The notes under the pieces: model-generated
Database searches by the model: none
What the model was told of the DNA's origin: nothing
Seen by the model: only the letters and a program-made list of their open reading frames with translations
From: a virus
DNA length: 34,988 nt
Strand: one strand, 5' to 3'
IMG/VR virus record: IMGVR_UViG_3300007511_000064
Location: 1-34,988 of that record
Part shown: positions 137 through 11,286 of the stretch, piece after piece
Numbering within the stretch: the stretch's first letter is position 1
How the letters are laid out: every line of letters starts with the position of its first letter
Translations under genes and position numbers: made by a program

Positions 137-766
137 GTGCGTCCGGAAAAGAAATACGAACTAATGCTGTTGAGATTGAGATATCTCAAAAAGGATTTAC
201 AATTTGTGGAAGAAACGAATGAGGAAGCCCAGCAAAAATTCTCCCAAGCGTTTAGAGCGTTTATCAGGTACCTGCCAGAAGCTCAGAAGGAGTCAATAGA
301 GAAGAACGTAAAGAAGGATGCCCCACCCACAAAAACTTCGGAAGAGAACGGCGAAAAGAAAAAAACTAGAAAGAAGGTGAGAGCACCAGTTAAATCTGAA
401 AAGAAAAAGAGAGAAGTCCAGAAGCTCTTTAAGGCAGTTGCAAAAAGCAGTCATCCCGATCGCATTATTGGCTTAAGCGAAAAAGAACAGGAAAGGAAAA
501 AGAAGCTCTTTAAAGAAGCTCAAGCTGCCGCCGATGAGTCCGATCTCTTTGATTTGATAGAGGTGGCTGAAAAGCTGGACATCGAGATACCGCAAGCCTC
601 AGAGGAGAGTATAGAGCTGCTGAAAGAGTCTATTGCAAAAATAAACGCAGAAATTAAAAAAATAAAACAATCTTTCGCGTGGGTGTGGTATCATGATCCT
701 TCGAAACGAGACAAAATAATGAGGCAATATATTGGAAAGCTTAAATTTAGTAACCCTCGGACTTGA
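137..766 (+). CDS. J-domain-like protein (HPD motif)
   Basis: A 209-residue, highly charged protein starting at GTG 137, one base after the upstream stop; an in-frame ATG near 164 is an alternative start. Residues 1-60 are predicted helical and 60-92 form a Lys/Glu-rich linker. Residues 93-150 look like a J-domain: a helix KLFKAVAKSSHPDR with the diagnostic His-Pro-Asp at 106-108, then a charged helix and LFDLIEVAEKL. A further helical region follows, ending in a basic tail. J-domains stimulate the ATPase of Hsp70 (DnaK), so the inferred role is recruiting host DnaK, perhaps to replication or assembly complexes. The G/F region and zinc centre of full DnaJ are absent. It overlaps the next gene by 35 bases. 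Assignment rests on HPD and helix pattern only. Confidence 0.6.
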   Translation: MRPEKKYELMLLRLRYLKKDLQFVEETNEEAQQKFSQAFRAFIRYLPEAQKESIEKNVKKDAPPTKTSEENGEKKKTRKKVRAPVKSEKKKREVQKLFKAVAKSSHPDRIIGLSEKEQERKKKLFKEAQAAADESDLFDLIEVAEKLDIEIPQASEESIELLKESIAKINAEIKKIKQSFAWVWYHDPSKRDKIMRQYIGKLKFSNPRT

Positions 767-1286
767 TATTTCTACAAGCATAACGGGCGCAACAATTCTA
801 GATAACTCAGGAACCATCCTCTACAGTGAAGCATGGGACACAAGAAACAAAAACAAATTCCCCACCCTCTATGACAAGGCATCTTTTATAAGGCAAAGAC
901 TCACAGAGATAAAAGGCAACTATCGCGTTGATGATATATTTATAGAACAATCGTTACAAAGTTTCCGATCGGGCTTTTCTTCAGCAAAAACACTATCAAC
1001 GTTGTCTCGATTCAATGGAATCGTTTCATGGCTTTGTTATAGCCTGTTTGAAATTCAGCCTCAAATGTTGGCTGCAACATCTGCGAGAAAGAAAGTTGGA
1101 ATAAAAGTCGACAGAAGTAAAGACACAAAAACACAAATATTACAGTTTTATCTTGACAAGAACCCCGGTATTGAAGTAGAATATACACATAAAGGAAATC
1201 CAAAACCGAAATACAAAGATATGGCGGACAGTTGGGTTATTGCAAAAGCGGGATTACAGATTTGTCAAGAAAAAAACACAAGCTAA
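732..1286 (+). CDS. RuvC-like Holliday junction resolvase / RNase H-fold nuclease
   Basis: A 184-residue protein starting at TTG 732, supported by GAGG at 721-724 seven bases upstream; no ATG start fits. The N-terminus has the RNase H-fold first strand LGLDISTSITGATI, with Asp12 in the catalytic position. FIEQSLQS supplies the expected central acidic residue (Glu72), and KDMADSWVIAKAG supplies C-terminal Asp163 and Asp166, a typical RuvC-type four-acid arrangement. RuvC-type enzymes cut four-way DNA junctions. In T4-like phages this job (T4 gp49) clears branches from replicating DNA before packaging, here by an unrelated fold. It sits between the J-domain gene and primase and overlaps both, so the three are likely translationally coupled. 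Another RNase H-fold nuclease role is possible. Confidence 0.75.
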   Translation: MESLNLVTLGLDISTSITGATILDNSGTILYSEAWDTRNKNKFPTLYDKASFIRQRLTEIKGNYRVDDIFIEQSLQSFRSGFSSAKTLSTLSRFNGIVSWLCYSLFEIQPQMLAATSARKKVGIKVDRSKDTKTQILQFYLDKNPGIEVEYTHKGNPKPKYKDMADSWVIAKAGLQICQEKNTS

Positions 1287-2194
1287 TATCTGACATACTT
1301 GGGAGAAGCTACCGAGTCAATGAAGAGTGTCTTTTCAGGTGTCCAAAGTGCAAGCACTATAAAAACAAGTTATCAGTAAATTACGATAAGAATGTTTTTA
1401 AGTGCTGGGTGTGCGATTATTCCGGCAAAGATATTTTAAGCCTAGTCCGCAAGTATGGGAGTTACAATCAGAAGAGTGAGTGGCTTGAGTTATCAGGCAA
1501 GGTTGATTTAAATGAATTTGATAACTTGTTTGAAGAGGTGGAAGAGGTGGATGTCCAGCAGCGTCTTGATTTACCAAAGGAGTTTAGGACTCTAACCTCG
1601 CGCAACCCGTCTCTCGCAGCATCACCAGCTTTAAATTACCTGAAAAAAAGAGGATATACCAGAGAGGACGTCCTTCATTGGAAAGTGGGATATTGTCTCG
1701 AAGGGGAATATGCCAATAGAATTATAATCCCATCTTTTGACGAAGAAGGGTATGTTAACTACTTTATTGCACGTAGCTTCACGGAGGATTGGTACCGATA
1801 TAAGAATCCACCAGCATCTCGAGACATTGTGTTCAATGAGTTATATATTGATTGGACAGACGATATAATCCTAACGGAGGGCATATTTGATGCAATGAAG
1901 GCTGGCAACGCAATCCCACTTTTGGGCTCAACCCTCAACGAGCGTTCGAAACTGTTTCAAAAGATTGTAGCACACGACTCTACAATCTTCATTGCTTTAG
2001 ACTCAGATGCCGAGAAGAAGTCTTTAAGATTGATAAAAAATCTGTTACAATATGATATAAGGGTTCGCAAGGTAGACATAAGTCCGTTTTCTGATGTCGC
2101 GGAGATGACAAAAGAAGAGTTTCAACAAAGAAAAGAGAAAGCATCTTTTGTTGAAGAAGGTGACTATTTATTATACCACGCCCTAAGCTTGTGA
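1262..2194 (+). CDS. DNA primase (zinc finger + TOPRIM)
   Basis: I place the start at TTG 1262 (310 residues), just inside the end of the resolvase gene; TTG 1232 in the same frame would add ten residues. The N-terminal zinc-binding domain has CPKC (Cys27, Cys30) and CWVC (Cys48, Cys51), the pattern used by DnaG-type primases to read template DNA. The TOPRIM domain shows ILTEGIFDA with Glu206 and ALDSDAE with Asp247 and Asp249, the metal-binding residues for primer synthesis. The protein is shorter than bacterial DnaG and lacks a helicase domain, so it should work with a separate phage helicase, as T4 gp61 does with gp41. Functional class is well supported; orthology with gp61 is inferred. 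Confidence 0.85.
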   Translation: MSRKKHKLISDILGRSYRVNEECLFRCPKCKHYKNKLSVNYDKNVFKCWVCDYSGKDILSLVRKYGSYNQKSEWLELSGKVDLNEFDNLFEEVEEVDVQQRLDLPKEFRTLTSRNPSLAASPALNYLKKRGYTREDVLHWKVGYCLEGEYANRIIIPSFDEEGYVNYFIARSFTEDWYRYKNPPASRDIVFNELYIDWTDDIILTEGIFDAMKAGNAIPLLGSTLNERSKLFQKIVAHDSTIFIALDSDAEKKSLRLIKNLLQYDIRVRKVDISPFSDVAEMTKEEFQQRKEKASFVEEGDYLLYHALSL

Positions 2195-2395: not shown

Positions 2396-2424
2396 TTGAC
2401 TTTTGAAGCGACACCAGTTATAAT
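2396..2424 (+). promoter_or_regulatory. sigma70-type promoter
   Basis: TTGACT (2396-2401) and TATAAT (2419-2424) are separated by exactly 17 bases, matching the bacterial housekeeping consensus at eleven of twelve positions. Transcription would start near 2431, just ahead of a GGAGG ribosome site (2439-2443) and the ATG at 2448. This suggests the recombination nuclease gene is transcribed early by unmodified host RNA polymerase. It is the only match of this quality I found. Confidence 0.75.
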
Positions 2425-2447
2425 ATAAAAGATATACTGGAGGTATA

Positions 2448-5400
2448 ATGGCGTTTAAGATCGCGCATATTAGTGATGTACACATCAGGAATTATAGATA
2501 TCATGATGTGTATGAAGTAGTGTTTGAAAATCTCTACAAAATTTTAGAAGAAGAGAAGCCCGACATCATTGTTAACACCGGAGATACTTGCCACACTAAG
2601 CTGCAAATATCCCCATCCTTTGTTGATATGACAAGAAAGTTTTTTGAAAGACTGTCGGATATCGCCCCGCACCATGTTATTCTGGGCAATCACGACTTAA
2701 ATCTAAGAAACCCAAGCAAGATGGATGCGCTTACTCCGATTGCTTCAAGTTTGAAGCATCCAAATTTGCATTTACACAAGTACTCGACTGAAGTTGAGGT
2801 TTCACCAGGAATCTTCATAAATGTATTATCTATCTTGGATAGAGAAAACTGGAAGAAGCCTTCGAACCCTGATAAGACAAATATAGCATTGTTTCACGGC
2901 TCTGTTGCTGGCGTTAAAACAGACACTGGCTGGGTGATGGAGCATGGGGATATTGATATTTCTGAATTCGAAGGGTTTGATTATGTCATGTTGGGAGACA
3001 TTCATAAAACTTTTCAAAAACTAGACGAAGAGGGAAGAGTCTGTTATCCTGGTTCTTTGGTTCAGCAGAACCATGGCGAATCAAACGACAAGGGGTTTTT
3101 GTTGTGGGAGATAGAAAACAAGGAAGAGTTTACTTGCAAGCACATTAGGTTGGAAAATCCAAAGCCTTTCGTTACAATTCAGTTAACGCCGAAGGGTAGA
3201 ATTCCGAAAGGAACAAAAGTGACACCGGGGGCTCGCCTCCGCCTCGTCACAAACAATAACCTACCTCTCGACTCCTTGAGGAGGGCAGTGGATGTTGCAA
3301 AACATCGGTTTAAGCCAGAAAGCGTAACTTTTCTAAACAGAGGCGCCGGCGGCTCTGTGTCAATGGACGAAGCAACTAAGAACCTGGCTCAGGAGGACTT
3401 AAGAGATATCACAGTTCAGGAATCCCTAATCAAAGAGTACCTTAAGGAGCATCAGGTTGAAGAGGACGTAATGCAAACGGTTTTAGATTTAAATCGCCGC
3501 TACAATGCATCGATAACAGAGAACGAAGAGGTGTCTAGAAACATAAACTGGAATTTGAAGTCCGCTGAATGGAATAATTTATTCAACTATGGAGAGTTGA
3601 ATAAGATAGATTTTTCAAAACTTAACGGCATTGTTGGCGTTTTTGGTAAGAATTACTCTGGCAAATCATCATTGATTGATCAGATGCTTTACACTGTGTA
3701 TAATTCTACATCCAAAAATGTAAGAAAAAATCTTGATTTGATAAACCAAAATAAGGATAAAGCTGACGGCAAGGTTACCATTTCAGTTGGTGATATGGAA
3801 TACACGATAGAGAGAACATCGGAAAAGTACACCAAGCGATTAAAAGGAAAAGAAACCCTAGAGGCAAAAACAGATGTTGAGTTTTATAGCACCGATCTTA
3901 TGGGCGAAGTGGTGACTCTTACTGGCACAGCCAGAAGTGACACTGACAAGAATATTCGAAAGATATTTGGTACCTTGGACGACTTTCTATTGACATCGAT
4001 GGCTAGTCAGTTGGGATCGCTATCCTTTGTCAATGAAGGCTCTACAAAAAGAAAAGAAATTCTAGCTAAGTTTCTAGATTTAGAAGTTTTTGAAAGAAAG
4101 TTCAGACTAGCAAAGGAGGACTCACAGGATACTCGTGCTATTCTGAATCGCCTTGAGGGAAGAGATTACCAAAAGGAAATTACAGACATTGAGATAGAGC
4201 TTGAAAAGAGTAGGATATTAACAAAGGAAAACAAGTCTGTTTGTGAAGATTACAGAAGAGAAATATCAGAAGCATCAGAAGAGGTGGATGTTATTCAGAG
4301 CAATATTGATTCTGTCCCAGCGGAGATTATCGATATAAGGGCGGTAAGATCAAACATAGAAAATTCAGAAAGAGACATTTTGCTTCTGAGTGCTGAGAAC
4401 AAAGAAATAGAAAACTCTTTGTTTGAAAATCAACGCTTGTATAAAAAGATAGAAGACTTTTTAGAAGATTACGATATAGAAGAGTGTCTCCGAGATAACG
4501 AAGTAATTAAGGAAAAGAGGGGGGAACTCGATGATATTCTCTTGGCTATCAAAGAAGAAGAATCAAAACTCAAGACAAACAGAAAGAAAGTCAAACTTCT
4601 CTCTGAAGTACCTTGTGGTTCTGAGTTTTCTCATTGTAAGTTTATTAGCGATGCTTACGCTGCAGAGAGTTTGGTTAAAGTATCAGAGAGAAATACAAAA
4701 ACGTATGCTGGAGCGAGGGAAACGCTAGAGCAAGAAGTGCAGGATATGAACCCTGATCGAGTCGCAGAGCATTTGGAAAAGTATAACCAACTTTTAGAGA
4801 AAAAGAATAATGTTGCCAACAACATTAGTTCTGATCAAATAAAGTTTGAGAAAAACAAGACAAACGTTTTGCAACTAGAGATTTCTATGAGAGAACTGAA
4901 GGGGAAAGCGTTTGAGTATGAAGAAAACAAGGAGGCTATTGAAAACCTTGAAGGCTTGATGGATCATAGAAATAGACTAATCAACTTTCGAAAAGAAAGG
5001 GAAACAGCACTCGAGCAATGTCTTGAAGACACAGCTGCACTATACAGACAGAACGGCTCGCTGGAAGAAAAGCTCAGCTCTCTTACTGAGAGCAGAGACA
5101 TGCTTCAAAGAATGAGAGAAGAGTATTCTGCTTATGATTTGCTTATGACTTGTTATCATTCGAATGGCATTTCGTATAACATTATTAAAAGGAGGCTTCC
5201 GCTTATTAACGACGAGATAGCAAAAATCTTGACAGACGTTGTGGAGTTCGAAGTGTTCATTGAAAATGAAGAGAAAAAGCTCGATATCTTTATTAAGCAC
5301 CCCCGTCACGATCCTCGCCCTTTGGAGCTTGGCTCAGGCGCGGAAAAGACTATTGCTGCCATGGCAATACGATTGGCGCTTTTGTCGGTTTCAAGCTTGC

Positions 5401-5603
5401 CAAAGCCTGACATATTTATTTTGGATGAGCCAGGCACGGCACTGGACGAGGAAAATATGGAAGGGTTTGTTCGTATATTAGATATGGTGAAGAACTACTT
5501 TAAGACAGTTGTTCTGATTTCTCACTTGGATGCTCTTAAAGATTGTGTTGATTCACAAATTTTAATAGAAAAGAATGAAGGTTTTGCTCATGTTAATGTA
5601 TAA
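2448..5603 (+). CDS. fused Mre11/SbcD-type nuclease and Rad50/SbcC-type ATPase (gp47-gp46 fusion)
   Basis: One 1051-residue frame carries both subunits that T4 encodes as gp47 and gp46. Residues 1 to about 210 are a calcineurin-like phosphodiesterase: SDVH (Asp10, His12), NTGDT (Asp46), LGNHD (Asn81-His82-Asp83), FHGS (His150), GDIH (Asp184, His186) and YPGSLVQQNHGE. Around 400 begins an SMC-type ATPase: Walker A GKNYSGKS (400-407), long charged coiled coils, a hook-like Cys723-x6-Cys730, further coil, signature LGSGAEK (from 961) and Walker B IFILDEPG (Asp993, Glu994). The complex resects DNA ends for recombination-dependent replication. The Cys spacing differs from the classical CxxC zinc hook. 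No stop or frameshift separates the halves, and the start has both a strong ribosome site and a promoter. Confidence 0.93.
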   Translation: MAFKIAHISDVHIRNYRYHDVYEVVFENLYKILEEEKPDIIVNTGDTCHTKLQISPSFVDMTRKFFERLSDIAPHHVILGNHDLNLRNPSKMDALTPIASSLKHPNLHLHKYSTEVEVSPGIFINVLSILDRENWKKPSNPDKTNIALFHGSVAGVKTDTGWVMEHGDIDISEFEGFDYVMLGDIHKTFQKLDEEGRVCYPGSLVQQNHGESNDKGFLLWEIENKEEFTCKHIRLENPKPFVTIQLTPKGRIPKGTKVTPGARLRLVTNNNLPLDSLRRAVDVAKHRFKPESVTFLNRGAGGSVSMDEATKNLAQEDLRDITVQESLIKEYLKEHQVEEDVMQTVLDLNRRYNASITENEEVSRNINWNLKSAEWNNLFNYGELNKIDFSKLNGIVGVFGKNYSGKSSLIDQMLYTVYNSTSKNVRKNLDLINQNKDKADGKVTISVGDMEYTIERTSEKYTKRLKGKETLEAKTDVEFYSTDLMGEVVTLTGTARSDTDKNIRKIFGTLDDFLLTSMASQLGSLSFVNEGSTKRKEILAKFLDLEVFERKFRLAKEDSQDTRAILNRLEGRDYQKEITDIEIELEKSRILTKENKSVCEDYRREISEASEEVDVIQSNIDSVPAEIIDIRAVRSNIENSERDILLLSAENKEIENSLFENQRLYKKIEDFLEDYDIEECLRDNEVIKEKRGELDDILLAIKEEESKLKTNRKKVKLLSEVPCGSEFSHCKFISDAYAAESLVKVSERNTKTYAGARETLEQEVQDMNPDRVAEHLEKYNQLLEKKNNVANNISSDQIKFEKNKTNVLQLEISMRELKGKAFEYEENKEAIENLEGLMDHRNRLINFRKERETALEQCLEDTAALYRQNGSLEEKLSSLTESRDMLQRMREEYSAYDLLMTCYHSNGISYNIIKRRLPLINDEIAKILTDVVEFEVFIENEEKKLDIFIKHPRHDPRPLELGSGAEKTIAAMAIRLALLSVSSLPKPDIFILDEPGTALDEENMEGFVRILDMVKNYFKTVVLISHLDALKDCVDSQILIEKNEGFAHVNV

Positions 5604-5833: not shown

Positions 5834-6234
5834 ACTGGTTAATCTTTAAGACATTTTGTAAGAAATCGTGGGTTTGGCTGCGTGAGCATTGGCAAATCCC
5901 GTTTCTTCTTGTCTGGTCCGTCGTTATCTGGATAATGGCGCGGAAGGACTTTGACGCCGCTCTCGGTGTATTGGAAGCGAAAAAGAAATCATATAATGAA
6001 CAAATGTCGGCAGTCAAAGATTCGCACAACAAGGAACTCATTAAGAGAGAGAATTTAATAAAAGAGTACAACGAACTGTTAACTCGCATTGAGAAAGATT
6101 TCGAGACAAAAGAGAAAGAACTCGAAGAACATCACAAAGCACAGATAAGAGAGGTGGTTGTGAAATCTAAAAACAACCCCGAAGAGGTGAGAAAAGAAAT
6201 TGAAAGAATCTTCGATTTTAAACATGTTGAGTAG
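5830..6234 (+). CDS. inner-membrane coiled-coil protein, i-spanin (Rz)-like candidate
   Basis: Start chosen at ATG 5830, which forms ATGA with the upstream stop; the frame is open further upstream but that part overlaps the holin-like gene. The 134-residue product has one N-terminal membrane span (about 22-37, IPFLLVWSVVIWIMA). A long Lys/Glu-rich coiled coil follows (about 45-120). This N-in, periplasmic coiled-coil design is that of inner-membrane spanins, which fuse inner and outer membranes in the last step of lysis. It overlaps the following gene by eleven bases. The C-terminal part lacks any signature I could check, so a structural or anchoring role is possible. Confidence 0.5.
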   Translation: MNWLIFKTFCKKSWVWLREHWQIPFLLVWSVVIWIMARKDFDAALGVLEAKKKSYNEQMSAVKDSHNKELIKRENLIKEYNELLTRIEKDFETKEKELEEHHKAQIREVVVKSKNNPEEVRKEIERIFDFKHVE

Positions 6235-6688
6235 AGCCCTGGTGTTTTGTATTGTTTTCAATGCATGTCCAGTTTACTCTCAGCCAGTTCCGTCTGAAGC
6301 CCCTAGTTTTACGCATCTTCGTAAAGGGGAAACGCTCCTGAGTCTAGACAGTGCTTGGTGTTATAGCGACAAGGCAAACGCAATACTTATCACATCCGCT
6401 GAGCAAGCAAAAAGAAGATGTCAGCTTGAAGCTGAGCTGCAGTTTACTAAAGATAAAGCTAAGCATGATTTGGAGGTGGGGCTACTGAAGGCGCATATCA
6501 ACTCTTTAGAGTCCTCCCATTCGAGAATCGAAGAAGCGTTAAAAGTAGAGAACGACAGTTTGACTAAAATTGCACTAGATCGGCCGACGGACATGCGAAT
6601 GTGGTTTGCCGCCGGAGGGTTCACTGTAGGCATAGCAACAACACTTCTGATAGGGTGGCTTGCAGTTTCAGCTCAGTCGGGGTTTTGA
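6224..6688 (+). CDS. exported coiled-coil protein with C-terminal TM, spanin-like candidate
   Basis: Start chosen at ATG 6224 (154 residues), overlapping the previous stop; a TTG at 6200 lies in frame upstream. The N-terminus MLSRALVFCIVFNAC is a signal-peptide-like stretch. It is followed by a proline-rich segment (PVYSQPVPSEAPS), a coiled-coil region and a hydrophobic C-terminus (about 126-150). VYS|Q could be a signal peptidase I site; FNAC (Cys15) is a poor but possible lipobox. An exported N-terminus plus a C-terminal span matches unimolecular spanins such as T1 gp11 and related phage proteins of the 'LxxGE...' type with two conserved Cys. Its position after holin- and i-spanin-like genes supports a lysis role. 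This is inference from architecture. Confidence 0.5.
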   Translation: MLSRALVFCIVFNACPVYSQPVPSEAPSFTHLRKGETLLSLDSAWCYSDKANAILITSAEQAKRRCQLEAELQFTKDKAKHDLEVGLLKAHINSLESSHSRIEEALKVENDSLTKIALDRPTDMRMWFAAGGFTVGIATTLLIGWLAVSAQSGF

Positions 6689-6692
6689 AAAG

Positions 6693-7073
6693 ATGTCAAT
6701 TGACTATGACAAGATAGCAAAGTTTGAAAAAGCAATATCGGAGAAGTATGGGAAAGATGCCATAAAGAATCCGAAAGGTGCCTGGACTGATGAAAAGGAA
6801 AAAGAGTTTATCGAGCAAATGAAGCAATTCTACAATAGGCTTGATAAGAATTTAGAAAAATCAGGGAAAGAGGAAGTAAATGGAGTTTTGGTATCTAAGA
6901 AAATCCTCTCGAGAAAGTCAGATAGAGAGTGTCCCGTTTGTCACAAATACTCTTTCGAAAGAAGAGACGACTTGTATATGAACAAGTTTCAGTGTTGTTT
7001 CGATTGTTTTATATTACATGTTGAGGGAAGAGAAGAGCGCTGGCGAGCAGGCTGGCGTCCAGAAATAGATTAG
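6693..7073 (+). CDS. zinc-ribbon hypothetical protein
   Basis: Start set at ATG 6693 (126 residues), just after the upstream stop; the frame opens earlier, but without a better start. The N-terminal 75 residues are helical and charged. The C-terminal part has CPVC (Cys80, Cys83) and CCFDC (Cys101/102, Cys105), separated by a short beta-type segment, so it should bind one zinc ion. It then ends in the charged segment EGREERWRAGW. I have the impression that similar zinc-ribbon proteins occur near terminase genes in marine T4-like phages, but no function is known to me. It could bind DNA or act as an adaptor for packaging. It is followed by a 71-base gap without a recognisable signal apart from the next ribosome site. 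Confidence 0.7.
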   Translation: MSIDYDKIAKFEKAISEKYGKDAIKNPKGAWTDEKEKEFIEQMKQFYNRLDKNLEKSGKEEVNGVLVSKKILSRKSDRECPVCHKYSFERRDDLYMNKFQCCFDCFILHVEGREERWRAGWRPEID

Positions 7074-7144
7074 CTTAAATGCGTTTAAAGAACTACTTAT
7101 GTTTAGGAGTCCTTTATTCAGAATGTAAAGAGGGAGCGTAACAA

Positions 7145-7720
7145 ATGGCAAGCACAATAGAAATTATTAACGGTATATCGCAAGCAGCAGCAAATGCGTA
7201 TGATGGAGCAACAGACTCAGACGGTGAAGCGCTCAGCGTTGGACTTAAGAGAGAAGAGGGTAACCCCCTTATTGATTCAAGGGTGATGGACGGCTTTAGT
7301 GTTAAGGTGTATGGGAACAAATTGTGTATAGGATATCATTCGGAAATCAGTATTAAAGAGGTGCACCAAAATAGTTTTGAGTCCGACATTGAACAGATGA
7401 TCGCGGATATCGCCTCCTTCCTCAAGAAAGAATACAAAAAGATAACAGGTAGCGCCCTGAGTCTTAAAAAGGACGGAGAGCCAGACATATTTGTTCAGAA
7501 TATTTCTCGAGTTCGATCAATGGTACAGGCAAAGTGTCACTATGTTATTGGAAACATGGATGCTGAAGCCATAGGGGAGCCCAGCGAAGATAGGCTGGAA
7601 GACAGCATAAAGAAGTGGCTTGCTCTCGGTGATGGCAAGAAGGCAGATAACGACAGCAGAAAAAAGGATAGCTTCGATCATTTCGATCCGACAAATATAA
7701 AAGCTGGCATTCGAAAGTGA
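7145..7720 (+). CDS. hypothetical protein directly upstream of terminase
   Basis: A 191-residue protein beginning at ATG 7145 behind GAGGGAG. The N-terminus is Ala-rich and helical. A central alpha/beta part (SVKVYGNKLCIGYHSEIS) is followed by the helix DIEQMIADIASFLKKEYKKI, and the last 45 residues are charged and probably disordered. It occupies the place where a small terminase subunit would be expected, three bases ahead of the large terminase gene. However, I see no helix-turn-helix or the coiled coil typical of T4 gp16, so I do not assign that function. A head or tail-completion role is equally open. The segment 'SIKEVHQNSFESDIEQMI' could be useful for remote-homology searches. Confidence 0.7.
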   Translation: MASTIEIINGISQAAANAYDGATDSDGEALSVGLKREEGNPLIDSRVMDGFSVKVYGNKLCIGYHSEISIKEVHQNSFESDIEQMIADIASFLKKEYKKITGSALSLKKDGEPDIFVQNISRVRSMVQAKCHYVIGNMDAEAIGEPSEDRLEDSIKKWLALGDGKKADNDSRKKDSFDHFDPTNIKAGIRK

Positions 7721-7723
7721 TAA

Positions 7724-9310
7724 ATGACATTTCGTTTGACAAAAAAAGAAATGATGAAGGAGATTGTCAAGTGCGGCAAAGATCCTGTCTACTTTATAGA
7801 TTCCTATTCTAAAATAACACACCCTCAAGAAGGCTTGATTCCGTTCAGGCTATACGACTTTCAAAAAGAGTTATTAAAAGATTACCAAGATAATAGGTTC
7901 AATGTAATATTGAAGGCACGCCAGCTGGGAATATCGACTGTCACGGCTTCTTACATTGTGTGGCTTATGTTGTTCCATCGAGAGAAGAATGTCTTGGTGG
8001 TTGCTACCAAGCTATCGGTTGCAGCAAACCTAGTAAAGAAGGTGAAACTGGCTATCAAGAGCCTACCCGAGTGGCTTCGTATAGCCAATGTTACTATTGA
8101 CAATAGAAACTCTTTCGAGTTATCAAATGGCTCCCTAATCAAGGCATCCTCCACCAGCGGCGACGCCGGTCGTTCTGAAGCTCTTTCCTTGTTAGTTGTC
8201 GACGAGGCAGCACACGTAGAGGGGATGGACGAACTCTGGACTGCGCTGTACTCTACCTTGTCTACTGGTGGACGATGCGTTGCCTTATCTTCCCCCAATG
8301 GAGTTGGGAACTGGTTTCACAAGACATACACAGAGGCGGATGAAGGAAAGAACGACTTCAAGCCGACTAGATTAATATGGGATGTTCATCCGGATAGAGA
8401 TAAGAATTGGTATGAAAAAGAAACCAGAAACATGTCTAGACGCGACATCGCACAAGAGTTGGAATGTAGCTTTAATATGTCTGGAGAAACTGTCTTTCAT
8501 GGGGAAGACATCGATAGAATATTAGAAAAAGTTTGCGAACCAAAGTACAAGACAGGGTTTGACAGGAACTTATGGGTGTGGGAAGAGCACAGGCAGGAGT
8601 TTAGTTACATTATATCAGCCGACGTCGCAAGAGGTGACGGAAAGGATTATTCAGTCTTTCATGTGATGAAGCTGGAAACTATGGAGATAGTGGCAGAATA
8701 CCAAGGCAAGGTAACACCTGATATCTTTTCTCGAGTTCTTTTCGACGCTGGGAGGGAGTACGGGAACTGTATGCTGATAGTGGAGAACAATTCAGTCGGT
8801 TTTGCAGTTTTGGATAAGCTAATTGAGAGCGGATACCCCAACCTTTATTATTCCATTAAGTCAACTCATGAATATGTGGATCAATATGAGGCGGAACTCA
8901 GAAGCAATTCTGTTGCTGGCTTTACAACCTCTATGAAAACCCGCCCTCTTATTATTGCAAAGATGGAGGAATTCGTAAGAAATAAACTAATTACCATATA
9001 TTCTTCCAGGCTTTTTAACGAAATGAAGACATTTGTCTGGAATCATGGTAGGCCGCAAGCTATGAGATCTTATAACGACGACTTAATAATGGCATGCGCG
9101 GTTGGTTGTTGGGTGAGAGACACGGCACTAGTTGTTGATAAGAGGGATGTAGAATACAAGAAGGCTATGATTGATTCGATGATAAGAACCAGCACAAAAT
9201 TAAATACATCAATAAAAGGTATGCAGGGCTATAAAAGCAATGAAATATCTGATAGAATGAAGGAACACACGAAGACACAGATAGACTATCCGTGGCTGTT
9301 TAGGGGATAA
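7724..9310 (+). CDS. gp17: large terminase subunit, DNA-packaging ATPase/nuclease (gp17-like)
   Basis: The 528-residue product has the two-domain layout and the usual length of T4-type terminases. The ATPase domain carries an adenine-binding FRLYDFQKELL segment and a deviant Walker A, KARQLGIST (64-72). It also has Walker B LLVVDEAAH with Asp160 and Glu161, and a coupling motif around LSSPNG. The RNase H-fold nuclease domain shows SADVARGDGKD (Asp300), VENNS and YNDDL (Asp452, Asp453), the acidic metal site. The enzyme docks on the portal, pumps DNA into the prohead and cuts the concatemer. The ATG lies three bases after the preceding stop, and portal follows after two bases, so these genes form one unit. 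Confidence 0.97.
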   Translation: MTFRLTKKEMMKEIVKCGKDPVYFIDSYSKITHPQEGLIPFRLYDFQKELLKDYQDNRFNVILKARQLGISTVTASYIVWLMLFHREKNVLVVATKLSVAANLVKKVKLAIKSLPEWLRIANVTIDNRNSFELSNGSLIKASSTSGDAGRSEALSLLVVDEAAHVEGMDELWTALYSTLSTGGRCVALSSPNGVGNWFHKTYTEADEGKNDFKPTRLIWDVHPDRDKNWYEKETRNMSRRDIAQELECSFNMSGETVFHGEDIDRILEKVCEPKYKTGFDRNLWVWEEHRQEFSYIISADVARGDGKDYSVFHVMKLETMEIVAEYQGKVTPDIFSRVLFDAGREYGNCMLIVENNSVGFAVLDKLIESGYPNLYYSIKSTHEYVDQYEAELRSNSVAGFTTSMKTRPLIIAKMEEFVRNKLITIYSSRLFNEMKTFVWNHGRPQAMRSYNDDLIMACAVGCWVRDTALVVDKRDVEYKKAMIDSMIRTSTKLNTSIKGMQGYKSNEISDRMKEHTKTQIDYPWLFRG

Positions 9311-9312
9311 GA

Positions 9313-11286
9313 ATGGCAGATAAGAATCAGAATCCGAGAAACGCAGAAAACTTGTTATTTAGAAGACTTACTAGGCTCCTCTCGGGCCCGTTAGTTAATT
9401 ATAGAACTCAGACGGGTAGGCGAATAAGAAGAATCGACTTAGACAAATTTGCGGATAGATTTAAGTCTGCATCCGGGCAGCACTTCAAGAAGATGGCTTA
9501 CGATCCATTCTCCAATTTGCAAGCCAACGTAATGGCAGGGCAAGCAAGAACCGAAAGATATGTTGACTTTGATCAGATGGAGTACACTCCCGAAATAGCA
9601 TCCTCATTGGATATATACGCTGACGAGATGACAACTAGCAGCAAGCTGCAGCCCTTAGTTAATGTGGACTGCCCAAACGAAGAAATAAAGCAGCTCCTAA
9701 ACGGACTATACTACAACATCATAAACATTGAATTTAACTTGTTTGGGTGGAGCCGTACTATGTGTAAGTACGGAGATATGTTCCTGTACCTGGACATTGA
9801 TGAAGACAGAGGGATACAATCTGTTATCGGACTGCCCACTGCAGAGATGGAAAGACTAGAAGGCGAAGACAAGACAAATCCAAACTATGTGCAGTTCCAG
9901 TGGAATTCTGCCGGGATGACGTTTGAAAATTGGCAAGTTGCACACTTCAGAATTCTTGGTAATGATAAGTATGCGCCATATGGCACTGCTGTCCTCGAAC
10001 CCGCGCGAAGAATCTGGCGCCAGCTAACTCTTCTCGAGGACGCAATGATGGCTTATCGCATTGTTCGTTCACCTGAACGCCGCGTATTCTATGTTGATGT
10101 TGGCAATATCCCGCCTAACGACGTCGAGCAGTTCATGCAAAAGATAATGACTCAGATGAAGAGGCATCAAGTTGTTGATCCCGACACTGGACGTGTTGAC
10201 TTGAGATATAACCCGCTGTCAATTGACGAGGATTATTTTATTCCTATTCGCGGCGGACAATCTTCGCGAGTGGAAAACCTTCCAGGCGGACAGTATACTG
10301 GAGATATCGACGACGTTAAGTATTTGAGAGACAAGCTGTTTTCAGCTCTTAAGGTGCCTCAGTCTTACCTCTCGCGCGGAGAAGGTTCGGAAGAAGACAA
10401 AACAACCTTAGCTCAAAAGGACATTCGTTTTGCTAGGACAATTCAAAGACTTCAGCGCTCTCTGATAACTGAGCTTGAAAAGATTGGGATTATACATTTG
10501 TATGTTCTCGGCTTTCGCGAAGACGACTTAGTTTCTTTTAAGTTGTCTTTGAACAACCCGTCTAAACTAGCAGAACTCCAAGAACTCGAACACTGGAAAA
10601 CAAAGTTCGAAACAGCATCATCAGCTACTGAGGGATTCTTCAGCAAGCGATGGCTGGCAAGAAAGATGTTTGGTATGACAGACGAAGAGTTCATGAGAAA
10701 CCAAAGAGAGATGTTTTATGATAGAAAATTTGAAGCAACACTAGAAGTTATTGGCGAAGCGGAACAAGCATCAGTAATGGGTGCTTCCCCCCCCGCTCCA
10801 GAAGGTGATATACTAGGTGGAGAGCCTCTGCCAGGTGAAGAAGGTGAGATGCCACTACCCGGAGCAGAAGCTGACACTGGCGCGCCAGAAGCCGACGCCG
10901 AAGGCGGCGAGGAAGAGGGTGAAACCGGTGAAGAGGACGTCCTCTTAGCAACTCCCGGAAAGAGAAAGGACAAGGCGCCAAGAATCACGGCAGGTTCGAA
11001 GGGTAAGGTATATACCCCAGTTGCTAGTGACAGAAGACAGTCCGCCGGCAGAAAGAAGCAGATGAAGGGATCATGGAATCATGAAACCTCGCAAAACACA
11101 ACCCGAAACATTTCGGCAGGATCATCAGACTTGCTGGGGCTAGGCAGAGGAATTTACGAGGAAGTAGAGGAAGTAGACTCTAATTATAAAGAGGAAGAAA
11201 AAAGACTATTCGAGGTAAATCAGGACATTAAACGTTTAATATCAGGACTAGGACTGAGGGAAGAAAAAGATGAGACTAAAGCATAA
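9313..11286 (+). CDS. gp20: portal protein (gp20-like)
   Basis: A 657-residue protein with the hallmarks of T4-type portals: an N-terminal segment DPFSNLQ, then YTPEIASSLDIYADE, a wing region, a crown/stem part with RSPERRVFYVDVGNIP and DIDDVKYLRDKLFSALKVPQSYLSR, and RFARTIQRLQRSL. These segments form the twelve-subunit ring that nucleates the prohead, binds terminase and later the neck. Residues from about 495 to 545 are a long acidic, proline- and glycine-rich stretch, followed by a basic linker and a C-terminal helix; this tail is longer than in T4 gp20 and probably flexible. It starts at ATG 9313 after AGGGGA, and its end overlaps the next gene by 17 bases. Confidence 0.96.
   Translation: MADKNQNPRNAENLLFRRLTRLLSGPLVNYRTQTGRRIRRIDLDKFADRFKSASGQHFKKMAYDPFSNLQANVMAGQARTERYVDFDQMEYTPEIASSLDIYADEMTTSSKLQPLVNVDCPNEEIKQLLNGLYYNIINIEFNLFGWSRTMCKYGDMFLYLDIDEDRGIQSVIGLPTAEMERLEGEDKTNPNYVQFQWNSAGMTFENWQVAHFRILGNDKYAPYGTAVLEPARRIWRQLTLLEDAMMAYRIVRSPERRVFYVDVGNIPPNDVEQFMQKIMTQMKRHQVVDPDTGRVDLRYNPLSIDEDYFIPIRGGQSSRVENLPGGQYTGDIDDVKYLRDKLFSALKVPQSYLSRGEGSEEDKTTLAQKDIRFARTIQRLQRSLITELEKIGIIHLYVLGFREDDLVSFKLSLNNPSKLAELQELEHWKTKFETASSATEGFFSKRWLARKMFGMTDEEFMRNQREMFYDRKFEATLEVIGEAEQASVMGASPPAPEGDILGGEPLPGEEGEMPLPGAEADTGAPEADAEGGEEEGETGEEDVLLATPGKRKDKAPRITAGSKGKVYTPVASDRRQSAGRKKQMKGSWNHETSQNTTRNISAGSSDLLGLGRGIYEEVEEVDSNYKEEEKRLFEVNQDIKRLISGLGLREEKDETKA

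Follow-up and report, generated by a model that had tools for sequence, protein, structure and literature searches.

Can a single phage gene encode both subunits of the Mre11-Rad50 complex, and what has become of the nuclease and the hook in such a protein? The question is raised by a gene at positions 2448-5603 of a 34,988-base virus record from IMG/VR (the window, by which we mean the whole stretch of DNA that was analysed). A sequence-only reading of the window contrasted the fusion with the two genes used by T4, SbcCD and Mre11-Rad50. The fusion as such is not new: examples have been described since 2011, and the cultured phages PAU, PTm1, pT24, MA9V-1 and Mel-JY01 carry them. Yoshida, Claverie and Ogata (Virol J 2011, PMC3175470) recognized Mimivirus R555 as an Mre11/Rad50 fusion and listed twelve further fusions from plasmids, bacteria, eukaryotes and Bacillus phage 0305phi8-36. 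In R555, Asp replaces His206, and the order of the fusion is compatible with the Thermotoga structure. R555-like genes were found to dominate the viral fractions of marine metagenomes and to neighbour phage primases, which points to phages as their probable source (PMC3175470). The hook is not taken up in that paper. In part of a jumbo-phage review (PMC7824862), SbcC and SbcD figure as separate proteins, and no fusion is mentioned there.

The fused gene and its setting

All 1051 codons of 2448-5603 are open, with zero internal stops, and Pfam detects both halves in the frame, which the sequence-only reading had correctly called uninterrupted. The matches are Metallophos at residues 3-187 (E 7e-13), AAA_23 at 376-612 and SMC_N at 680-1026. 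PHROG 77 (SbcC, a phage family) covers residues 305-1049 (E 4e-52). Sequence matches in the PDB assign the first half to Mre11/SbcD and the second half to Rad50. An AlphaFold2 model of the monomer was built from 52 related sequences (mean pLDDT 82.9, pTM 0.51), and Foldseek against the PDB matched both halves, to SbcD (7dog, the nuclease plus cap) and to Rad50 or Mre11-Rad50 (3av0, 7zr1, 7yzp). The features of the locus are as follows.

732..1286, + strand: RuvC-like Holliday junction resolvase (PHROG 159), conserved neighbour with gene order kept
1232..2194, + strand: DnaG-type DNA primase (PHROG 47, E 7e-44), conserved neighbour directly upstream of the fusion
2396..2424, + strand: sigma-70-type promoter, TTGACT - 17 nt - TATAAT (11/12 match)
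2439..2443, + strand: GGAGG ribosome-binding site, 4 nt before the ATG (read directly)
2448..5603, + strand: fused Mre11/SbcD-Rad50/SbcC gene, 1051 aa (open frame, Pfam, PHROG, homologues)
2448..3152, + strand: Mre11/SbcD phosphodiesterase domain, residues 1-235 (Pfam Metallophos, 1ii7 alignment, 7dog fold match)
3153..3347, + strand: Mre11 capping domain, residues about 236-300 (predicted strands and helix 241-297; folds 7dog, 3tho_B, 3av0_A)
3408..3521, + strand: helix-loop-helix, residues 321-358 (predicted helices 321-335 and 339-358, pLDDT about 83-92)
3522..3545, + strand: 8-residue junction 359-366, from the helix-loop-helix to the first Rad50 strand (invariant residues, model)
3546..4082, + strand: Rad50 ATPase N-lobe, residues 367-545 (Pfam AAA_23, alignment, model)
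3645-3668, + strand: Walker A, G400-S407, in the N-lobe alongside the Q-loop Q521
4083..4607, + strand: ascending coiled-coil arm, residues 546-720 (predicted helices)
4608..4637, + strand: hook apex, residues 721-730, with Cys723 and Cys730 (C-x6-C); non-helical loop between helices 677-720 and 731-766
4638..5156, + strand: descending coiled-coil arm, residues 731-903 (predicted helices)
5157..5600, + strand: Rad50 ATPase C-lobe, residues 904-1051 (Pfam SMC_N; phmmer match to P. furiosus Rad50 3qkt at 923-1049)

Walker A, Q-loop, signature, Walker B, D-loop and H-loop are all present, on two lobes separated by the coiled coil. The Walker A at 400-407, the signature and the Walker B had been named from the sequence and are indeed there. 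Across 49-52 homologues, no or almost no variation occurs in the residues of the signature (LGSGAEK, 961-967), Walker B (FILDE, 990-994), the D-loop (D1000) and the H-loop (H1026). The helix-loop-helix is presumed, on the basis of the model, to be the Rad50-binding part of Mre11, serving here as a linker. In the junction that follows, R364 and N365 are invariant across 49 aligned fused homologues, as is W368 just after it. The model has a low-confidence stretch at 301-314, the N-lobe from 367, a loop at 721-730, helices at 731-929 and then the C-lobe. As a monomer model with a pTM of 0.51, it does not fix the arrangement of the nuclease relative to the ATPase. Two cysteines of the coiled coil, Cys599 (4242-4244) and Cys858 (5019-5021), are kept in 74/79 and 75/79 relatives, respectively. 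Cys858 is missing in four of the five proteins that lack Cys599, so the two may be linked to each other across the coiled coil.

The promoter ends 23 nt ahead of the ATG of the fused gene. In a scan of the 150 bases ahead of the start in relatives, scored against the sigma-70 consensus, the best match reached 11 or 12 of 12 positions in 22/52 relatives, versus 0.2% of base-shuffled controls. The earlier description of an own near-consensus host promoter thus holds for a promoter conserved well beyond chance, while its attribution to the host is presumed.

Judged by its head and packaging genes, the window phage, a marine virus, is tailed and distantly T4-like. The large terminase subunit (TerL), portal, protease and major head protein all belong to T4-type PHROG families. 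The nearest isolates are Flavobacterium phage immuto (43% identity for TerL, 49% for the head protein) and Microcystis phage Mel-JY01 (43% and 37.5%). In phage immuto (NC_055915), no SbcC match was found, and the Metallophos proteins are short only. Immuto, the nearest isolate by terminase, is thus without detectable SbcC, and the remaining group relies on the fused form. The order RuvC, primase, fusion, small genes, TerL, portal is conserved among relatives, with the primase upstream of the fusion in 81/101 loci. In every respect that can be checked (upstream primase, GDIH motif), the sequence of the window phage fits the phage source that Yoshida et al. predicted.

The proposed machine

Taken together, sequence and model make it very probable that one polypeptide encodes the Mre11-Rad50 (SbcCD, T4 gp47-gp46) machine for end resection and tethering. 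The order along the chain, from sequence and model, is nuclease, cap, helix-loop-helix, ATPase N-lobe, coiled coil, hook, coiled coil and ATPase C-lobe. Since the catalytic residues of both halves are invariant in 49-52 homologues, both activities are under selection. The RuvC and primase neighbours provide a recombination and replication context, which we count in favour of this assignment.

By analogy with Mre11-Rad50 biology, two chains would pair via their nuclease domains, their ATP-bound heads and the hook, to form a 2:2 machine from one gene. With the 8-residue junction as its tether, the helix-loop-helix would probably bind in cis to the root of the coiled coil. Between the C-terminus of Mre11 and the N-terminus of Rad50, a distance of ~28 A was measured, which about 9-12 residues can span (Yoshida 2011, PMC3175470). 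Driven by ATP, the heads would close and open and so control the access of DNA ends to the nuclease. T4 gp46/47 processes ends for recombination-dependent replication and takes part in host DNA degradation. Like it, the product of the fused gene probably serves recombination-dependent replication by resecting and tethering ends, and it may contribute to the breakdown of host DNA. It had been pointed out from the sequence that a fusion fixes a 1:1 stoichiometry. This is true, but changes little, because the two-chain Mre11-Rad50 complex is already 2:2.

The hook and motif V

CxxC is given as the conserved hook motif (PMC9569753, PMC5093744), and the Rad50 hook with CxxC has been described as conserved from archaea to viruses (PMC5093744). 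The window protein has no classical CxxC zinc hook at its apex, and a Cx6C pair is in its place. The cysteines had been correctly located at 723 and 730 from the sequence; in the AlphaFold2 model, they flank the predicted apex loop 721-730 exactly. A partial, non-exhaustive search of the literature found no report of a Cx6C hook. Among 79 window-like proteins, 64 have Cx6C (PCGxxxxxCKFI), one has Cx7C and 14 have CxxC; none of the 79 lacks the cysteine pair. CxxC is found in 10/10 sampled split pairs, in Mel-JY01 and LR756501, and in fusions of the PAU-PTm1 type. The CxxC relatives carry YDPxCxxCxxNxFVKDA: the helix start F[IV]KDA is common to both types, but the cysteines are placed elsewhere. 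On a tree of the nuclease and ATPase heads, the hook type requires at least 8 changes, compared with an average of 17.5 for shuffles; this is a quick tree with the coiled coil left out, and recombination between heads could inflate the count.

Because relatives in the same clade have CxxC, Cx6C is, at the level of sequence, a derived hook and not the mark of a different protein family. The hook seems to have been altered yet kept, and repeatedly remodelled or exchanged among relatives. Most likely, going by sequence and model, the Cx6C tip still binds metal between two protomers, with a geometry unlike that of the classical CxxC hook. The suggestion that dimerisation might be altered or lost is therefore upheld for the altered spacing and not for the loss, given Cx6C in 64/79 proteins with the cysteines at the apex. 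The strongest alternative takes up the second part of that suggestion: metal-mediated dimerisation at the tip would have been lost, Cys723 and Cys730 would form an intrachain disulfide or be structural, and dimerisation through nuclease and heads would suffice. The spacing, unlike the CxxC of the ten sampled split pairs, and the different position of the cysteines relative to the flanking F[IV]KDA helix speak for such a loss. However, it is hard to reconcile with a pair retained exactly at the apex, and with close relatives that switch between Cx6C and CxxC but never to none, and we regard it as unlikely.

A more specific and highly speculative thought, to which we give little credence, is that the tip is a compatibility module. 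The fused protein would then pair with itself and not with the Mre11-Rad50 of a co-infecting phage or of the host, and co-circulating related phages would repeatedly have exchanged or remodelled the tip (Cx6C, and CxxC of two sequence types).

In the nuclease half, the metal-site residues in alignment to P. furiosus Mre11 (1ii7) are D10, H12, D46, N81, H82, H150, D184 and H186, all of them invariant. The sequence-only reading had counted all phosphodiesterase motifs as present. The DxH, GDxxH, GNHD and H motifs are, and only motif V deviates from the metallophosphoesterase core set: it reads GDIH instead of the usual GHxH, with Asp184 at the position of P. furiosus His206. The Mre11 cap and the C-terminal helix-loop-helix are both found in the model (241-297; 321-335, 339-358). 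We count the GDIH protein, by its sequence, as a variant within the Mre11/SbcD family, in which the His-to-Asp change could lower or otherwise change nuclease activity. Pushed further, the exchange would mean that the nuclease half is weakened or specialised and that the protein is mainly a DNA tether or scaffold, as might be read from the loss of a metal-site His in nearly all fused relatives and from the identical change in Mimivirus R555. Yet the remaining metal-site residues are all invariant, Asp is a good Mn ligand, and the invariance of Asp184 in 52 sequences suggests use rather than decay, so that this reading is quite improbable.

Fused and split genes among phages

Relatives of the fused protein are encoded in 324 IMG/VR stretches, of which the best 80, including some near-duplicates, were examined. 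The whole frame lies in one ORF in 78 of these best 80 contigs (50-89% identity); the two exceptions are a cut contig (L004) and a contig whose frame contains one TGA (L048). Each of 13 long related contigs (102-203 kb) has its sole Metallophos match within the fused gene and a single strong match to SbcC, with two extra weak ones in Mel-JY01. A separate gp47 was not seen on these 13 contigs with the Metallophos profile; most related contigs are incomplete, which leaves some room for a split copy elsewhere. The single-chain gp47-gp46-type protein with the nuclease first, as originally proposed, is thus borne out by its domains and by its relatives, which are consistently fused and show no split at residues 350-390. 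The fused frames, the invariant junction and the single Metallophos match together exclude a stop that was missed through sequencing error. Although a joined frame in Listeria phage LMTA-57 (1010 aa, with the linker IKRRRKRM resembling a translated intergenic region) sets a precedent for read-through, an error in sequencing or assembly that deleted a stop between two normal genes has a negligible chance of explaining a frame kept in relatives from many assemblies, a short, conserved junction without intergenic-like sequence, and single annotated genes in the isolates PAU, PTm1, pT24, MA9V-1 and Mel-JY01.

The LMTA-57 frame itself (KJ591605, about 59,500-62,500) joins SbcD and SbcC via a linker that resembles a translated ribosome-binding region. 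It groups with the split Herelleviridae and is a separate (recent) fusion event or a sequencing error. Nitratidesulfovibrio phage SRB7757, which looked fused in tblastn, has two abutting genes.

Isolates with one fused gene are Mel-JY01, Sphingomonas phage PAU, Tenacibaculum phages PTm1, PTm5 and pT24, and Chryseobacterium phages MA9V-1 and MA9V-2; the genes are mostly labelled 'metallo-phosphoesterase'. The fused form is also present in uncultured phages of 484 and 735 kb. Split adjacent genes in the same order are found in T4, cyanophages, SPO1-like Bacillus and Staphylococcus phages, T5-like Vibrio phages and E. coli. In a tree of the nuclease half (19 fused, 10 split), a branch with support 87/92 separates the fused proteins from all others; in a tree of the ATPase heads (25 fused phage proteins, 10 split), the support is 100/96. 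The fusions thus form one clade in these sampled trees, apart from the split pairs of T4, of SPO1-like and T5-like phages and of E. coli. Both trees have a small sample and long branches, with giant-virus sequences left out, and fused forms were not monophyletic on a wider, cellular sample (Yoshida et al., PMC3175470). For these reasons, the single origin of the fusion that the sequences indicate is one among these sampled phages and not for all fusions.

A cellular origin found no support in one scan of bacterial and archaeal genomes, where the matches were either phage-like MAG contigs or weak and confined to one domain. In the 'chromosome' of a WOR-3 MAG (CP070664), a fragment of the phage fused gene runs into an N stretch, followed by unrelated genes; this is probably a chimeric scaffold join, or a masked stretch. 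A plasmid search at E 1e-3 yielded no match that covers 80% of the query, and its candidate from Vibrio campbellii H151 turned out to be a normal sbcDC pair of two separate genes. The best fold matches in BFVD are giant-virus proteins of 969-1389 aa. Tupanvirus comes first (22% identity over 1313 columns), and fused proteins of Tupanvirus, Harvfovirus, Terrestrivirus and Catovirus are the best viral fold matches (18-22% identity); pT24 and PTm1 rank lower (13-14%). This suggests, but does not prove, that the window clade lies closer to R555 than to the PAU-PTm1 clade.

R555 resembles the window protein in being a single chain with the Mre11-like part first, Asp at His206 and the helix-loop-helix kept, and R555-like genes lie beside phage-type primases, as does the window gene. 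It differs in length (1351 aa) and in its origin from a eukaryotic giant virus, whereas the coiled coil of the window protein is shorter and its tip is of the Cx6C type. The 'AAA domain' protein of Mel-JY01 and the protein of LR756508 are full-length fused proteins with 27-30% identity, an upstream primase and GDIH; they differ in their CxxC hook (735-738 in Mel-JY01), and the gene of LR756508 is interrupted after motif V. The proteins of PAU, PTm1, pT24 and MA9V-1 hold both halves in a single frame of about 1300 aa, but have a longer coiled coil and a CxxC hook and form a deep separate branch; in PAU, motif V is GHIH. T4 gp47/gp46 and other phage SbcD/SbcC pairs are the same two enzymes with the same gene order and motifs. 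They are encoded by two genes, lie far from the window protein in both trees and, in T4 and cyanophages, have CxxC and GHxH. Cellular Mre11-Rad50 and E. coli SbcCD share the fold of both halves, but have two chains and a CxxC hook, and in E. coli a much longer coiled coil (1048-aa SbcC).

In LR756508 (484-kb phage, 5944-10169), a 305-aa ORF breaks the fused gene immediately behind motif V (GDIHKRQK). This ORF has zinc-ribbon-like cysteines and may be a homing endonuclease; a search of the interruption for a group I intron or another Rfam RNA gave nothing at gathering threshold. In a further contig (L119), the frame is broken in the loop where this interruption lies.

The fusion as such is already known. 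The new data tie the marine R555-like genes of 2011 to concrete large tailed phages, with contigs up to about 200 kb, and the 1051-aa single-chain protein, whose coiled coil is short, would lend itself to structural studies of the Mre11-Rad50 cycle. The part that deserves the attention of specialists is the spacing of the hook and its repeated change: the cysteines of the Rad50 hook can apparently be spaced otherwise than in CxxC, and a single protein family can change its hook type more than once.
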